Positions 40,614-48,278 of a DNA stretch of 49,717 nt are shown here, piece by piece (the first letter of the stretch is position 1; each line of letters begins with the position of its first letter). This stretch comes from Vicinamibacteraceae bacterium (GTDB taxonomy: Bacteria > Acidobacteriota > Vicinamibacteria > Vicinamibacterales > JAFNAJ01): positions 13,339 through 63,055 of the forward strand of contig JAHDVQ010000006.1 of assembly GCA_023384595.1 (NCBI GenBank), written 5' to 3'. A model generated the notes under the pieces. The model ran no database searches. It had not been told where the DNA came from and saw only the letters and a list, made by a program, of their open reading frames with translations. The position numbers were made by a program, and so were the translations under genes.

Positions 40614-42782
40614 GTGACCCGCTGGCAGCGTCCCCTCCGCCTCGGCCTGGCCGTGTTCGCCGTCGTCTTCGCCGTCGCGGTCTATTTCGCGATCGGGCGC
40701 CGGCCGGCCGCGCCGTCCGGGGCCACGTCACCGAGATCCGACCCCAAGGCAGTACTCGAAAGCGAGGGAGGTGTCACACAGATCGCCTCGAAGACCCGCC
40801 AGGACTTCCAGGTGAAGTACGGGCGCATGGCCGTGTACGAGGACGGCACGACCCGTTTCGAGCAGATCGAAGTCCTCGTGCCGCAACGTGGCGGCCGCGA
40901 CTACACGATCACGGCCTCGAGCGGCGTGGTCGCCGACAACCAGAACGACATCGCCCTCGAAGGCCAGGTGAAGCTCACCACCACCGACGGTCTCGTCGTC
41001 GACACCGAGGCGGCGTCGTTCGAGCGGACCGAGGGCATGCTGCGCATTCCCGGGGCCATGGCGTTCTCGCGGCGGGGCCTGCGCGGACGTTCGGTGGGCG
41101 CCACCTACGATCAGCAGCGTGAGGTGCTGTGGCTGCTCGACCGCGCCGAGGTCGACATGACGGCCGAGAAGGGGGCGCCGGCGACGAAGATCCGGTCGGG
41201 CTCGGCGGGCTTCGCGCAGCGGGATCGGTATTTCCGGTTCGAGCGCGACGTCGTGATGACGCGCGGCGGACAGACGATCACCGCCGACGGGGCCGTCGCC
41301 CACTTGCAGCCCGAGGCCGACGTGCTGCAGATGATCGAACTGCGCGGCCGCTCGCGGGTGACCGGCGCGGCGGCGAGTGCCCTCGAGGCGATGACGGCCA
41401 ACGACATCAACCTCGCGTACGGCGAGGACGGCGCGACGCTCCAGCGGGCCACGCTCGCGGGAGCGGCGAGCCTGCGGCTGGCCGGGGCCGGAGGGCAGGG
41501 CACGCGGCGGCTCGAGGCCGAGTGGATGGACATCGGCCTCAGTCCCGACGGGCGCCTCGCGACGTTCATCGCGGCCCGGGAGCGCGTGGCGCTCGATCTC
41601 CCGGCGGGCGAGGGCGCGCCCGCGCGCCGCATCACCTCGGTCACGCTCGATGCGGCGGGCCCGCCCGACCAGGGCATCACCACGGCCCGCTTCGCTGAGA
41701 ACGTGGAGTTCCGGGAGCGCGTGCCGGCCGCAGCGGGGCGTCCCGCCTCGGAGCGCGTCGCGCGATCGCGCACGCTCGATACGGTGGTGGCCCCGGGCTT
41801 CGGCGCCATCGAGGCCGCGAACTTCGTGGGCGACGTGCGGTTCATCGACGGCGCCCTCGAGGGCCAGGCGCCGGACGCGACGTACAACGTGGCCAAGGGC
41901 GCGCTGCGCCTGCAGGGCGCCGCGCGCAGTGCGGCCGGCGGACAGACCGCGCGGCTGGTGGACGAGCGGGCCGACATCGACGCCGAGCGCATCGACGTCG
42001 CCCTCGAGGGCGGCGATCTCACCGCGACGGGCGGCGTCCGCTCGGTGCTGAAGTCCAGCCGCGACGATGGGGACGCGCGCGACGGCGGGCGAACGGCTCG
42101 CCGGCCGTCGATGCTCAAGGCGGACCAGCCGACCAATGTGACCGCCGATCGTCTCGTCTACGAGAAGGAGACCGGCCGGGCCACCTACACGGGGGATGCG
42201 CGGCTCTGGCAGGGCGAGACAGCCGTGCAGGCACCGACGATCGCGCTCGACGAGGTGCGGGGCAACCTGCGGGCCGAGGGCGGGGTGAAGTCGACGCTGC
42301 GGCTGCAGGACGCCGGTGAGGCGGGCGAGGCTCGGACGTCGGTGCTGACCGCGCAGACGCTGCTCTACGAGGAAGAGGAGCGGCGGGCCACCTACACGAC
42401 CGACGCCAGGATGGTGGGGCCCGAGGGCGACGTGCGCGCCGACCGGATCGAGTTGTACCTCGACGAGTCGGGCGAGGCCCTCGATCGCGCCGAGGCCTAC
42501 GATCGCGTCGTGCTGCGCGCCGACGTCTCGTCGGCGCGCGGCGACGTGCACCAGCGCGTGTCGTGGGGCGAGCGCCTGACGTACTTCGCCCGCGATGGCC
42601 GCTACGTGATGAGCGGACCCGAGGTCGTCATCCAGGAGCAGCGGCCCGCTGAATGCGTGGAAACTAAAGGCAAAACGTTGACTTTCTACAGATCGGCCGA
42701 TACGATTCTCATCGACGGCAACGCACAACGCCGCACCGAATCGACGACCACGGGCAAGTGCCCGGGCCAGCCCACGCGCTGA
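40614..42782 (+). CDS. LptC-LptA fusion, LPS transport periplasmic bridge protein
   Basis: A 722-residue protein anchored by one N-terminal helix (residues 9-29) with the rest periplasmic. The region of about 45-200 has the LptC pattern ([68 protein letters not shown]). Several further LptA/OstA-like beta-jellyroll repeats follow, clearest at about 500-700 ([40 protein letters not shown]). Ordinary LptC and LptA are about 190 and 180 residues and separate. It should carry LPS from the LptBFG transporter toward the outer membrane. The GTG at 40614 gives a proper signal anchor; another GTG at 40581 is in frame. It overlaps lptB by one base. Confidence 0.85.
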
Positions 42783-43507
42783 TGGCGACGCTCCGGACAC
42801 TCGCGCTCACGAAGTCGTACGGCGGGCGGACGGTCGTCCGCGGCGTCAACCTCGACGTCCAGTCCGGTGAAGTCGTGGGGCTGCTCGGTCCGAACGGCGC
42901 CGGGAAGACCACGACGTTCTACATGTGCGTCGGGCTCACGGCGCCCGATGCGGGGCGCGTCGAGCTCGACGGGGCCGACATCACCTCGGATCCCATGTAC
43001 GTGCGGGCCCGGAAAGGGCTCGCGTACCTGCCGCAGGAGCCCTCGGTCTTCCGCGGGCTGACCGTCGAACAGAACATCCTGGCCATCCTCGAGACGCTCG
43101 ACCTCGACGCCGCGGCGCGGCGCGCGCGGCTGCGCGAGCTCGTCGCCGAGCTCGGGCTCTCACAGGTGGCCCGCTCGCGCGGCTACCAGCTCTCGGGAGG
43201 GGAGCGGCGCCGCGTGGAGATCACCCGCGCGCTGGTGCTCTCGCCGAAGTTCATCCTGCTCGACGAGCCGTTTGCCGGCATCGATCCGATTGCCGTGACC
43301 GACATTCAGAAGATCATTTTCCACTTGAAAGAACGGGGCATCGGCGTTCTCATCACCGACCACAACGTGCGGGAGACCTTGCGCATCACGGACCGGGCGT
43401 ATATCGTGCATGACGGTGTCATCTTCCGGAGCGGCACGCCCGTCGAACTCGCCGCCGACGAGGATGTCAAGCGAATTTATCTCGGTGCCGATTTCCGTCT
43501 CGACTAG
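42782..43507 (+). CDS. lptB: LPS export ABC transporter ATP-binding protein LptB
   Basis: A 241-residue ABC ATPase. Walker [11 protein letters not shown] (residues 38-47), the Q-loop [16 protein letters not shown], signature [11 protein letters not shown], Walker [16 protein letters not shown] and switch histidine in [10 protein letters not shown] are all present and match LptB rather than other ABC proteins. It powers the LptFG membrane pair (not in this window) that lifts LPS to the periplasmic bridge. The ATG overlaps the upstream LptC-LptA stop (TGATG), and rpoN follows after 40 bases, the classic lptB-rpoN order. Confidence 0.97.
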
Positions 43508-43547: not shown

Positions 43548-44981
43548 ATGGCCATCTCGCAGAAACTCCACACGAAGCTCGTCCAGAAGCTGATTCTGAC
43601 GCCGTCATTGCAGCAGGCCATCAAGCTGCTGCCGATGTCGACCATCGAGCTCGCCGATCTCCTCAACCAGGAGATGGTGGAGAACCCCATGCTCGAGGAA
43701 GTGCCGGTCGAGGAGCTGCAGGCCACCGAGGCGACGGCGAACACCGACAAGGCCGAGCCCGAGCCCGAGGCCGCGCCCGCCAAGGCCGACACCTGGGACG
43801 ACAGCGACTACGAGTACTTCTTCGGCGATTACCTCGACGACGGCTATCGTCCGAAGGCGCCGACCGAGGTCAAGGAACTGCCGCCGATCGAGAACACGCT
43901 CTCGACCTCGTCGTCGCTCTCCGATCATCTCCTCTGGCAGCTGTCGCTGCAGACCGACGACCCTCTCGTGCGCGAGATCGGACTCGCGGTCATCGGCAAC
44001 ATCGACGACGACGGCTACCTGGTGGCCTCGGTGGACGAGATTGCCGCCATGGGCGACTGGGCGGCGGCCGACGTCGAGCGCGTGCTGGCCCTCGTGCAGC
44101 AGTTCGACCCGGTGGGCGTGGCCGCGCGCGACCTGCAGGAGTGCCTGACGCTGCAGCTGCGGCACCTGGGCCTCGAGGGCACGCCGAGCGAGCGCATCGT
44201 CAGCGATCACCTGCGGCTGCTGCAGAACCACCAGGTGCCCGAGCTGGCGCGGCGGCTGGGCCTGGCGGTCGACGAGCTCAAGACGCACATCGACATCATC
44301 CGCGAGCTCGATCCCAAGCCCGGGAGCAAGTACAACCCCTCGCAGTCGCAGTACGTCATCCCTGACGTCTACGTGGTCAAGGTCGAGGACCAGTACGTCG
44401 CGGTGCTGAACGAGGAGGGGCTCCCGCAGCTGCGCATCAGCCCCGTGTACCGGCGGCTGCTCGACAAGAACAACGAGGCGAGCGACGAGACGCGCGCCTA
44501 CGTGAAGGACAAGTTCCGGTCGGCACTCTGGCTGATCAAGTCGGTCGACCAGCGCCAGAAGACGATCCACAAGGTCGCGACGAGCATCATCAACTTCCAG
44601 CGCGACTTCCTCGACCACGGCATCGAGCACCTGCGGCCGCTGGTCCTGCGCGACGTGGCCAACGACATCGGGATGCACGAGTCGACGGTCAGCCGCGTCG
44701 TGAACAACAAGTACATGCACACGCCCCAGGGCGTGTTCGAGATGAAGTTCTTCTTCCACAGCGGCATCAGCAGCTCGTTCGGCGAGAGCGTCTCGTCGGT
44801 GACGATCAAGCAGCGGATCCGCAAGATCGTCGAGGGCGAGGACCCGCGCAAGCCGCTCTCCGACTCGAAGATCGTCAGCATCCTGCAGAACGAGGGGCTG
44901 ATCCTCGCGCGCCGCACCATCGCGAAGTATCGCGAGGAGCTCAAGATCCCGACCTCGAACCAGCGCAAGGTCCTCTACTGA
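43548..44981 (+). CDS. rpoN: RNA polymerase sigma-54 factor
   Basis: A 477-residue sigma-54. Region I is glutamine/leucine-rich (KLHTKLVQKLILTPSLQQAI, residues 4-23, then LLPMSTIELADLLNQEMVENP). An acidic region II (about 50-100) is followed by the core-binding part, the DNA-binding helix-turn-helix (VLRDVANDIGMHESTVSRVVNNKYM), and the RpoN box ARRTIAKYREEL near the C-terminus, which reads the -24 element. It directs transcription at -24/-12 promoters with AAA+ activators; the NtrY-like kinase in this window may feed such an activator, but none is visible here. It stands in the conserved lptB-rpoN-hpf order. Confidence 0.97.
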   Translation: MAISQKLHTKLVQKLILTPSLQQAIKLLPMSTIELADLLNQEMVENPMLEEVPVEELQATEATANTDKAEPEPEAAPAKADTWDDSDYEYFFGDYLDDGYRPKAPTEVKELPPIENTLSTSSSLSDHLLWQLSLQTDDPLVREIGLAVIGNIDDDGYLVASVDEIAAMGDWAAADVERVLALVQQFDPVGVAARDLQECLTLQLRHLGLEGTPSERIVSDHLRLLQNHQVPELARRLGLAVDELKTHIDIIRELDPKPGSKYNPSQSQYVIPDVYVVKVEDQYVAVLNEEGLPQLRISPVYRRLLDKNNEASDETRAYVKDKFRSALWLIKSVDQRQKTIHKVATSIINFQRDFLDHGIEHLRPLVLRDVANDIGMHESTVSRVVNNKYMHTPQGVFEMKFFFHSGISSSFGESVSSVTIKQRIRKIVEGEDPRKPLSDSKIVSILQNEGLILARRTIAKYREELKIPTSNQRKVLY

Positions 44982-44990
44982 GGAGTCTCC

Positions 44991-45545
44991 ATGCGTCTCT
45001 CGCTCACCGGCCGCAACGTCGAGGTCACTCCGGCGCTGCGCCAGCAGGTCTCCCGCCAGATCCAGAAGCTCGAGCGCGTGGCCGGCGACATGGCCGTCTC
45101 GGCGCAGGTCGTCCTGGCCCGCGAGCGCTTCCGCTGCCTCACCACCGTCACCCTGCATGCGCGCGGCGACCGCGTCCTCACCGGCCTCGGCGATGCGACC
45201 ACCTGGCTCGCGTCGATCAAGGAGGCCTGCGAGAGCCTCGAGAAGCAGACGCGGAAGGTGAAGGAGAAGTGGACCACGCGCAAGCGCCGGGCCACGGGAG
45301 GGAAGCGCCTGCCCGTGCCGCCCGAGGCCGCCGGCGCAGCCCCGCCGCTCGACGCCGCGACGCTCGGTCCGCGCATCATCCGCGCCCGTCACCTCGTGCG
45401 CAGTCTCAGCCTCGACGCCGCGCGCGCCAGGCTCGCGAAGTCGTCCGACGAGTTCCTGGTCTTCCGCAACAGCGAGACCGGCCGGACGGCGGTCCTCGTG
45501 CGGCGGCAGGACGGCAACTTCGGCCTCATCGAACCCGAGGCCTGA
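44991..45545 (+). CDS. hpf: Ribosome hibernation promoting factor, long form
   Basis: A 184-residue protein of the long HPF type. The N-terminal domain (1-95) has the sigma-54 modulation/S30EA fold, starting MRLSLTGRNVEVTPALRQQV, and binds the decoding centre. A flexible linker of about 30 residues follows, then a C-terminal dimer domain (about 130-182) with SSDEFLVFRNSETGRTAVLV. The long form alone can pair ribosomes into 100S particles, unlike the short HPF plus RMF of enterobacteria. AGGAG directly overlaps the rpoN stop and sits five bases before the ATG, so the two are tightly coupled. Confidence 0.95.
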   Translation: MRLSLTGRNVEVTPALRQQVSRQIQKLERVAGDMAVSAQVVLARERFRCLTTVTLHARGDRVLTGLGDATTWLASIKEACESLEKQTRKVKEKWTTRKRRATGGKRLPVPPEAAGAAPPLDAATLGPRIIRARHLVRSLSLDAARARLAKSSDEFLVFRNSETGRTAVLVRRQDGNFGLIEPEA

Positions 45546-45561
45546 GGCCGGCGGCGGTCGC

Positions 45562-46563
45562 ATGGCCTACACGCCGAGCCTGACGATTGGCGCATTGCTC
45601 GCCCGCGGCAGCGGCTTTGCCGGCCTCGAGCTGCGCCTGGTCGCCGGCGAGCACGGGCTCGAACGCCGCGTGTTGCACCCCGCCATTCAGAAGACGGGCC
45701 TGTCGCTCGCGGGCATGGCCGATTTCGTCCACGCCGGACGCGTCCTGATCTTCGGCGACAGCGAGGTGCAGTACCTCTCGAGCCTGCCGCCGAGCGCGCG
45801 CCGTCGCACGCTGGACGCCATCTTCCAGCACGACGTGCCCTGCGTCCTGGTCACCAACGGCCTCGAACCGCCCGCGGAGCTCCTCGACGCCGGCCAGGCG
45901 TCGAACGTGCCCATCCTGCTCACGTCGGCGACCACCGCCGCCGCCATCACGAAGATCACGGCCCTGCTCGACGATCGCCTCGCCCCGCGCGAGGTCGTCC
46001 ACGGCGTCCTGCTCGACATCCTCGGGCTGGGGACGCTGATCGTGGGTGACAGCGGCATCGGGAAGAGCGAGTGCGCGCTCGACCTCGTCGTGAGCGGTCA
46101 CCGGCTCGTGGCCGACGACGCCGTGGAGGTCCGGCGGCGCGCCGAATCGGTCCTCATCGGCTCGTGCCCGGAGCTCACGCGCCACCACATGGAGATTCGC
46201 GGCATCGGGCTCATCAACATCCGCGACATGTTCGGCGTCGCGTCGACGCGCCGATCGAAACGCGTCGAGTTCGTCGTGCAGCTCGAACGCTGGGACCCCG
46301 GACACGATTACGAACGGCTCGGACTCGATGACGCGTTCTACGAGCTGCTGGGCGTGGCCATTCCCATGGTGAGGATGCCCGTGGCGCCGGGGCGGAACCT
46401 GGCCGTCCTCGTGGAGGTCGCGGCGCGCAACCAGCTGCTGCGCGTGCGCGGTCAGCACGCCGCGCGCGCGCTCGTCGCGCGGGCCGATCGGCGGATCCTG
46501 GACGCCGAAGCCGGGCCGCTGCACGAGGACGACGAGGACGACGAGCAGGATCTCGAACGATGA
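45562..46563 (+). CDS. hprK: HPr kinase/phosphorylase
   Basis: A 333-residue bifunctional HprK. Residues 5-125 form the N-terminal domain. The catalytic domain has His147 in VHGVLLD, the P-loop GDSGIGKS (162-169), the paired aspartates Asp185 and Asp186 in LVADD, and the HprK signature EIRGIGLINIRDMFG near 212-226. It phosphorylates or dephosphorylates Ser46 of HPr in response to ATP, fructose bisphosphate and phosphate. The target HPr is encoded three genes downstream and keeps Ser46. The C-terminal 18 residues are very acidic. Overlaps rapZ by ATGA. Confidence 0.96.
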   Translation: MAYTPSLTIGALLARGSGFAGLELRLVAGEHGLERRVLHPAIQKTGLSLAGMADFVHAGRVLIFGDSEVQYLSSLPPSARRRTLDAIFQHDVPCVLVTNGLEPPAELLDAGQASNVPILLTSATTAAAITKITALLDDRLAPREVVHGVLLDILGLGTLIVGDSGIGKSECALDLVVSGHRLVADDAVEVRRRAESVLIGSCPELTRHHMEIRGIGLINIRDMFGVASTRRSKRVEFVVQLERWDPGHDYERLGLDDAFYELLGVAIPMVRMPVAPGRNLAVLVEVAARNQLLRVRGQHAARALVARADRRILDAEAGPLHEDDEDDEQDLER

Positions 46564-47537
46564 CGCGAAAGAAGCCGGCTCAGCGCGCGCGCACAGGGAC
46601 GGCGGGGCGCGGGACCGTCACGCGCGCGGGCGCGCGGGCGGCCCGCCGGAGCGCGGGACCGTCGCCGGCGGCGTCGCGGCTGGTGGTCATCACGGGGCTC
46701 TCGGGCGCGGGGAAGACGCAGGCGATTCGCGCCCTCGAGGACCTCGGGTTCTTCTGCGTCGACAATCTCCCGATCACGCTGCTGCCGACCTTCGCCGAAC
46801 TGACATTGCGGGCGACGCACGAGTTCCCACGCGCGGCCGTGGTCATCGACGCGCGCGAGGGACGGCTCCTCGACGAGTTTCCAGTCACATGGCAGAAGAT
46901 CCGGCGGCAGAAGGAGCTGAACCCGACGCTCATCTTCCTCGAGGCGTCCGACGCCGCGCTGGTGCGCCGCTTCAGCGAGACCCGGAGGCCCCACCCGCTC
47001 GCCCCGGGCAGGTCGGTGGGCGAGGGCATCGAGGCCGAGCGCGAGCGTCTGGCCCCCCTGCGGCGCCTGGCCGACGCCATCATCGACACCTCCGACATGA
47101 CCGTACACGAGCTGAGGCGGGCGTTTCTCGACGACGCGCGCGGTCACCCGGTCCGGCACGGCCCGGTGGTGACGCTCCTCAGCTTCGGCTTCAAGCACGG
47201 GCTGCCGATCGACGCGGATCTCGTCTTCGACGTCCGCTTCCTCCCCAATCCCCACTTCCTTCCCGACCTGCGGCCGAAGACCGGCCGTGACAGGCCGGTG
47301 GTCGCCTACCTCGATCAGTTTCCCGAGACGGAGGCCTTCCTCGAGAAGACCGCCGACCTGCTGCGGTTTCTCCTGCCGCGCTACGCGAGCGAAGGCAAGA
47401 GCTACGTGACCGCGGCGATCGGCTGCACGGGTGGCCGGCATCGGTCGGTGGCGATGGCCGAGGCGCTTCGGACGCGCCTGGCCGACGTCGCCGGCATCCG
47501 ACTGCGCGTGCGGCATCGCGACATGGGGCTCGACTGA
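46560..47537 (+). CDS. rapZ: RNase adapter protein RapZ / nucleotide-binding protein YvcJ-like
   Basis: A 325-residue protein of the RapZ/YvcJ family. A basic, low-complexity stretch of about 38 residues precedes the P-loop GLSGAGKT (46-53), and DNLPITLLP follows. The C-terminal domain carries SFGFKHGLPIDADLVFDVRF, NPHF, and AIGCTGGRHRSVAMAEAL, the conserved block for metabolite or RNA binding. In E. coli RapZ guides RNase E to the GlmZ sRNA and so controls glucosamine-6-phosphate synthesis; the Bacillus homologue affects competence. The basic KRK-type tail of the enterobacterial protein is missing here (the end is RHRDMGLD). The clustered hpf-hprK-rapZ-PTS order is well known in many phyla. 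Confidence 0.94.
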   Translation: MTRKKPAQRARTGTAGRGTVTRAGARAARRSAGPSPAASRLVVITGLSGAGKTQAIRALEDLGFFCVDNLPITLLPTFAELTLRATHEFPRAAVVIDAREGRLLDEFPVTWQKIRRQKELNPTLIFLEASDAALVRRFSETRRPHPLAPGRSVGEGIEAERERLAPLRRLADAIIDTSDMTVHELRRAFLDDARGHPVRHGPVVTLLSFGFKHGLPIDADLVFDVRFLPNPHFLPDLRPKTGRDRPVVAYLDQFPETEAFLEKTADLLRFLLPRYASEGKSYVTAAIGCTGGRHRSVAMAEALRTRLADVAGIRLRVRHRDMGLD

Positions 47538-47562
47538 CAGGGGGGCGAGCCCGGAGAGCGTC

Positions 47563-47997
47563 ATGCCCGTGACTCCACAGTCCCTCATCGGCGTCGTGGT
47601 CGTGACGCACGGCCAGCTCGCGACCGAGCTCGTCAACGCGGCCGAGACGATTGTCGGCGACCTGCCGCGGTTCGCGGCCGTCTCCATCGGTTGGCACGAT
47701 GATGTGGACGCGGCGCGCGAACAGATCGGCGCCGCCATCGAGCGGGTCCGCGGCGAGGCGGGCGTGCTGCTGCTGACCGACATGTTCGGCGGCACGCCAT
47801 CGAACCTCGCGCTCACGTTCCTCACCGAAGGGCGTGTCGAGGTGATGACCGGCGTGAACCTGCCCATGCTCATCAAACTCGCGGGACTCCGCAGTTCGGC
47901 CGATCTGCTCGGCGTCGCGCGCGAGATGCGCGAGCACGGCCGCAACGCCATCTGGGTCGCCTCGGATCTGCTGCGCGCCGAAGGGCCCACCCCGTGA
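47563..47997 (+). CDS. PTS EIIA component, mannose/fructose (EIIA-Man) family
   Basis: A 144-residue EIIA of the mannose family. The phospho-accepting histidine is His16 in VVVTHGQLA. The LTDMFGGTPSNLAL segment (about 71-84) is the family's conserved loop, and a NLPMLIKLA block follows. The ribosome binding site GGAGAG at 47552 supports the ATG at 47563. No EIIB, EIIC or EIID for sugar transport is nearby, so the protein probably works in regulation with the adjacent HPr. Its stop overlaps the GTG of HPr. Confidence 0.92.
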   Translation: MPVTPQSLIGVVVVTHGQLATELVNAAETIVGDLPRFAAVSIGWHDDVDAAREQIGAAIERVRGEAGVLLLTDMFGGTPSNLALTFLTEGRVEVMTGVNLPMLIKLAGLRSSADLLGVAREMREHGRNAIWVASDLLRAEGPTP

Positions 47998-48278
47998 CCA
48001 CGCGGGCGGTGACGATCGTCAACCCGCTCGGCATGCACGCGAGGGCCGCCGCACGGTTCGTCCGGACCGCCGCGGCGTACGCCTCGACGATTCACGTCGC
48101 ACGGGGCCGGCGCCAGATGGACGGCAAGAGCATCATGGGCCTCCTGCTGCTCTCGGCGCCGCGCGGCACCGAGATCGTCATCGTCGCCGAGGGGCCCGAT
48201 GAGGCCGCGGCCGTCGAAGCGCTCGCCCAGCTGGTGGCCAGAGGCTTCGACGAGGAGACGCCTGGCGCCGAAGGTTGA
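47994..48278 (+). CDS. ptsH: Phosphocarrier protein HPr
   Basis: A 94-residue HPr. His15 in GMHARAAARF receives phosphate from Enzyme I, and Ser46 in GKSIMGLLLL is the HprK target; both are intact. The protein thus can take part in both the transport/regulatory chain and the HprK switch. The GTG start overlaps the EIIA stop (GTGA). Enzyme I (ptsI), often the next gene, is absent here: a sulfatase gene follows in place of it. Confidence 0.95.
   Translation: MTTRAVTIVNPLGMHARAAARFVRTAAAYASTIHVARGRRQMDGKSIMGLLLLSAPRGTEIVIVAEGPDEAAAVEALAQLVARGFDEETPGAEG

Follow-up and report, generated by a model that had tools for sequence, protein, structure and literature searches.

The rpoN-linked gene cluster found in this Vicinamibacteraceae genome encodes a phosphate relay that is, with moderate probability, a regulatory PTS of the EI-R type whose Enzyme I (EI) was replaced by that of a glucose-PTS fusion protein. 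This reading builds on the gene content, the conserved residues, the loss of the cluster ptsI, the presence of a fused EI and the co-occurrence of the components among genomes, from which we infer phosphorylation in trans, competition with glucose uptake and a target of the relay. The cluster, as located in the window (the whole stretch of 49,717 nucleotides that was analysed), is a derivative of the EI-R type regulatory PTS and not a full member of it, since ptsI is absent from the cluster and the only EI falls in the fusion clade.

EI moves phosphate from PEP to His15 of HPr and on to EIIA, and HprK uses ATP to phosphorylate Ser46 of HPr, which slows that flow. For the present relay, the dedicated ptsI (EI-R) would have been lost in the ancestor of the window's family, and the glucose-PTS fusion EIIA-Glc-HPr-EI, encoded on contig C220, would supply phosphate in trans, passing it from PEP to the fused EI, next to the cluster HPr (at His15) and finally to the histidine of EIIA-Man. 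HprK with ATP would phosphorylate Ser46 and slow the flow. Phosphorylation of EIIA-Man would be the output, reporting PEP/pyruvate and here also competition with glucose uptake, and dephosphorylated EIIA-Man would act on target enzymes. The fusion, which has an HPr domain of its own, may instead serve EIIA-Man without the cluster HPr, or may have no part in the relay. More tentatively, the sigma-54-linked relay could be regarded as rewired, with the fusion of the glucose importer as sole phosphate donor and a PEP/pyruvate sensor turned into a sensor of glucose uptake; in one related genome (G002) the fusion would then have been trimmed to an EI without fused domains, whose only partner is the regulatory HPr.

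Gene content and layout of the rpoN cluster

Six genes (rpoN, HPF, hprK, rapZ, EIIA-Man and HPr) form a single tight run on the forward strand between positions 43548 and 48278, as had been proposed in the preliminary description from the sequence alone and as is now borne out by Pfam and NCBIfam searches and by the spacing of the genes (Table 1). The best Pfam E-values of the six proteins range from 2e-15 to 1e-64, and sigma-54, HPF, HprK and RapZ matched NCBIfam equivalog models above cut-off. Intergenic gaps within the run measure 9-25 nt, with overlaps of 4 nt at hprK/rapZ and EIIA/HPr, and this spacing suggests that the run is one transcript. No sigma-70-like promoter was found inside the run. 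A single terminator-like site was located inside rapZ and none after HPr, which is no more than in shuffled sequence. In most loci of the order examined, lptB precedes rpoN.

Table 1. Features of the rpoN cluster and its flanks, with positions in the window
Feature	Coordinates	Strand	Supporting match	Position relative to the module
lptB, LPS export ATPase	42758..43507	+	TIGR04406 4.7e-107, above cut-off	upstream neighbour, conserved across the order
rpoN, sigma-54	43548..44981	+	Sigma54_DBD 2.6e-64, CBD 1.6e-60	linked gene, outside the co-lost phospho-module
long ribosome hibernation factor (HPF)	44991..45545	+	S30AE 1.9e-15, C-terminal domain 1.6e-10	linked gene
hprK, HPr(Ser) kinase/phosphorylase	45562..46563	+	TIGR00679 6.9e-107, PDB 1ko7 alignment	module core
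rapZ	46560..47537	+	RapZ N 1.6e-46, C 3e-46	within cluster, lost or kept independently of the phospho-module
orphan EIIA-Man, phosphorylatable His = residue 16	47563..47997	+	PF03610 7.5e-25, PDB 3lfh alignment	module core
HPr with His15 and Ser46	47994..48278	+	PF00381 1.5e-28	module core
sulfatase, cut by contig end	48316..49717	+	Sulfatase 2.8e-62	in the place of ptsI, not part of the module

The earlier statements on the individual proteins also held. HprK, first described as complete, gave a 293-residue alignment, covering most of its length, with an HPr kinase/phosphatase of known structure, the cluster HPr could be aligned to solved HPr structures and carries both His15 and Ser46, and the phospho-histidine of EIIA-Man is residue 16 in local numbering. 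With regard to HprK/HPr catabolite repression of the Firmicutes type, HprK and HPr both align to solved homologues and Ser46 is present, and HprK may act on this residue.

Downstream of HPr, the sulfatase gene starts after 37 nt and encodes an N-terminus that is signal-like by eye. The end of the window is the end of contig C29, 1.4 kb past HPr. Up to that point neither EIIB/C/D nor ptsI is present, as was first noted; this does not extend to the organism, which has an EI and a glucose-type permease on contig C220.

Enzyme I elsewhere in the genome and loss of ptsI in the order

The window's genome (G000) comprises 4.83 Mb in 500 contigs, with a completeness of 98.5%. A genome-wide search for ptsI and EII permeases, proposed in the preliminary description, returned one EI, which is fused, and a glucose-type IICB; the absence of Enzyme I and sugar permease is thus correct for the locus and incorrect for the genome. 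With the PEP-utilizer mobile domain three places were found, one of them the EI on C220, while the EI N-domain was found at the C220 place only. The protein encoded there (locus L133) is a chain of 888 residues with the order EIIA-Glc-HPr-EI (PF00358, PF00381, PF05524, PF00391, PF02896). The IICB permease encoded after it exceeded the cut-offs of two glucose models (NF008301, TIGR02002) and stayed below that of the N-acetylglucosamine model TIGR01998. With IIA-Glc, HPr and EI joined in a single chain and a glucose IICB next to it, the C220 protein has the characteristics of a glucose-PTS multiphosphoryl transfer protein. An N-acetylglucosamine-type permease, connected with RapZ in an amino-sugar circuit, was also considered and was dropped based on the same scores. 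Beside the glucose permease, L133:4918-7551 (- strand) encodes a chain of 877 residues in which two tandem 6-phosphofructokinase units can be recognised by eye.

In the only EI of the genome, EIIA_1 and HPr domains are present and a GAF domain is absent. No match to EIIA-Ntr (PF00359) was obtained in this genome, while seven of 14 control genomes matched. An identity as PTS-Ntr was rejected on these two grounds. The mannose permease was searched for through EIID (EIID-AGA), which gave no match in any of 100 genomes, own genome included, and a mannose permease serving EIIA-Man was therefore rejected. The view that EIIA-Man is regulatory rather than involved in moving sugar, for which a complete mannose-type permease elsewhere would have been the counter-evidence, is supported by this result: because no EIID of a mannose permease is found in the genome, the role of EIIA-Man is probably regulatory, as in the rpoN-linked regulatory PTS described in PMC2405797 and PMC2937029.

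Profile searches for EI, HprK, HPr and EIIA-Man were performed on 100 genomes of the order, including the own genome, and matches were obtained in 71, 70 (over cut-off), 71 and 69 genomes, respectively. In 64 genomes ptsI directly follows the cluster HPr, a count that includes G067 with an EI fragment of 45 residues at a contig end. It is missing after HPr in five genomes, namely all four sampled members of the window's family (G000-G003) and G033. Three genomes (G044, G047, G051), whose contigs break at this place, were not judged, and G096 (57% complete), whose HPr-EI pair is of a different type, is in neither count. At the place of ptsI, G000 has the sulfatase, and in G001-G003 the opposite strand carries a gene that resembles ssb by eye.

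All five genomes lacking the cluster ptsI carry an EI of the fusion lineage elsewhere, compared with five of the 64 keepers (G013, G023, G042, G058 and G059; Fisher p 2e-5, relatedness ignored), and on the rpoN tree this association rests on two independent losses. In an EI tree of 96 rows (order EIs with a matched stretch of about 380 residues or more, and the first 25 named loci with a usable EI), the four EIs of the window's family group together as a single clade with full support, well separated from the 61 order EIs encoded after HPr. Of the four, three are fused as EIIA-Glc-HPr-EI, and the EI of G002, a bare protein of 567 residues, is nested among the fused ones. The EI of G033 is part of an HPr-EI-EIIA fusion of the fructose type, with genes for fructose IIB and IIC adjoining by eye. 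No PF02378 permease was found in G001, G002 and G003 by a search that also missed fructose-type IIC such as that of G033, and coupling to glucose uptake is consequently supported for G000 only. G003 and G001 (L139, L135) keep the EIIA-Glc-HPr-EI fusion though no PF02378 permease was found in them. Among the EI loci of the order matched by pattern, such as L216, L192 and L189, three cluster EIs have THH at the active-site stretch, versus TSH in several fusion EIs.

Possible routes of phosphate and loss of the module

A somewhat different route for the phosphate is that the HPr domain of the fusion phosphorylates EIIA-Man directly, so that the cluster HPr would serve only as the Ser46-P signal of HprK. 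We regard this as rather unlikely, though the fused HPr domains retain both His and Ser in all eight proteins examined by eye. Against it, His15 of the cluster HPr is kept, along with Arg17 and Ser46, in 70 of 70 order genomes, those without ptsI included, which speaks against a switch working through Ser46 only. In addition, the EI of G002 has no HPr domain, and apart from the cluster HPr no HPr was found in this genome, so that no other HPr partner for this EI is in view; the genome is 90% complete, and an HPr-bearing part may be missing.

The cluster HPr was further compared between the window's family and the 65 genomes that keep ptsI (here including G044). No alignment column was specific to the family, and hence no sign of an adjustment to the new EI could be seen. 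Residue 24, a candidate for such a family-specific adaptation, was dropped, as eight of the 65 keepers share it. Relative to rpoN, HPr and EIIA of the window's genome evolve at rates ranking 17th and 52nd of 60, and relaxed evolution was not seen there, only in G001. Both proteins of G001 rank first of the 60 in rate, a pattern expected under relaxed constraint. The G001 lineage (L134) appears as if it were changing or relaxing the relay.

Displacement of the EI by the glucose fusion was also weighed against the view first taken of this cluster, that of a system lacking Enzyme I which affects sigma-54 and ribosome hibernation; HprK, HPr and EIIA would then sense ATP through Ser46 alone. The cluster indeed has no ptsI, and rpoN and HPF are adjacent, but the view is improbable in light of the EI encoded in the own genome and of the co-occurrence of HprK and EI. 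HprK is accompanied by EI in all 94 genomes that carry it in a phylum sample of 149 (only HprK matches above 41 bits being counted) and in 68 of 70 order genomes, and EI occurs without HprK in 22 genomes of the phylum sample. A distance of no more than 6 kb separates the two genes in 82 of these 94 genomes and not in the remaining 12, so that an EI encoded apart from the cluster is nothing exceptional for the phylum as a whole. Outside the order, HprK and EI do not lie within 6 kb in G109, G110, G135, G136, G148, G159, G162, G206, G226 and G230, some of which may reflect contig breaks.

The losses within the order point in the same direction. Of the 100 genomes, 29 lack EI, and in 27 of these HprK likewise gave no match above cut-off. 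The other two are G047 and G051, in which hprK is located close to, or right at, the end of a contig. Apart from these two, HPr and EIIA are missing from the EI-less genomes as well. Among the genomes that lost hprK, EIIA, HPr and EI, rpoN is retained in 17 of 17 examined, and it persists without the module. The relay may still control sigma-54 or ribosome hibernation, but rpoN is not dependent on it. In these module-less loci (L228-L244) lptB and rpoN are followed by rapZ in 12 of 17 cases, with hprK excised between them and EIIA, HPr and EI removed from the end. At the loci of G021, G065, G072, G078 and G089 no rapZ was found. Loss of the whole module could be placed five times on an rpoN tree of 80 rows out of 91 genomes with an rpoN match, in which G047 and G044 were counted as full though their contigs break before EI.

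Judged by this pattern of co-loss and by the persistence of rpoN, hprK, EIIA-Man, HPr and EI behave as one unit, of which rpoN and rapZ are independent neighbours. The order presents a natural deletion series, consisting of genomes with the complete cluster, genomes in which ptsI is gone from it, and genomes in which rpoN, in most cases accompanied by rapZ, remains without the phospho-module. This series separates the genes that belong together (hprK, EIIA-Man, HPr and an EI) from their neighbours (rpoN and rapZ). It bears on what rpoN-linked HPr/HprK systems do, and it argues that phosphorylation of the histidine, and hence an EI, is needed for their retention.

That the cluster ptsI is merely absent from fragmented assemblies or lies at an unassembled place is very improbable, as ptsI is missing in four of four family genomes, three of which have readable sequence well past HPr with the ssb-like gene there, and G003 is rated 100% complete, even if the own genome is in 500 contigs and the window contig ends just past the cluster.

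Relation to known regulatory PTS

An rpoN-linked regulatory PTS of the EI-R type, with ptsK, IIA-Man, ptsH and ptsI near rpoN, is described for Proteobacteria in PMC2405797, where displacement of EI-R by EI-Ntr in Proteobacteria is already proposed. The cluster shares with this type the linkage to rpoN, HprK, an HPr with His15 and Ser46, and a IIA-Man that is without IIB/C/D and is not tied to an EIID mannose permease (0 of 100 genomes). It differs in that EI-R would be replaced by a glucose-PTS fusion EI, in its occurrence in an acidobacterial family and in that no EI-Ntr or EIIA-Ntr was found. Listings and opening lines of abstracts in the open-licence literature gave no paper that treats such a system in Acidobacteria or reports that a glucose fusion has taken it over. 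According to PMC2405797, the rpoN-linked regulatory PTS and the displacement of its EI are known from Proteobacteria, and the proposed takeover by a glucose fusion EI would be new here.

For the incomplete PTS of Brucella melitensis, PMC2937029 reports a relay of NPr, HprK and EIIA-Man in vitro, and binding of the EIIA-Man-like protein to SucA in a two-hybrid test. Phosphorylation of NPr by HprK on serine, an EIIA-Man-like acceptor and the lack of a mannose permease, as given there, resemble the present cluster. The Brucella system is described in the same text with a GAF-bearing EI-Ntr and EIIA-Ntr, and its genes are linked to BvrR/S and not to an rpoN run with rapZ.

In Pseudomonas putida, according to PMC3562155, the fructose fusion protein FruB feeds the regulatory branch PtsN, which is likewise a sugar-PTS fusion that feeds a regulatory PTS branch. 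In that case the dedicated EI (PtsP) is kept and the acceptor is PtsN (EIIA-Ntr), while here an EI of the fusion lineage is the only EI found. Finally, the group of multiphosphoryl transfer proteins with N-terminal IIA-Glc, as outlined in PMC2405797, shares the order IIA-Glc, HPr, EI with the C220 protein, which lies here beside a glucose-class transporter. Set against that description the C220 protein itself is not notably different; what would be new is the rpoN cluster as a second client, as proposed here.
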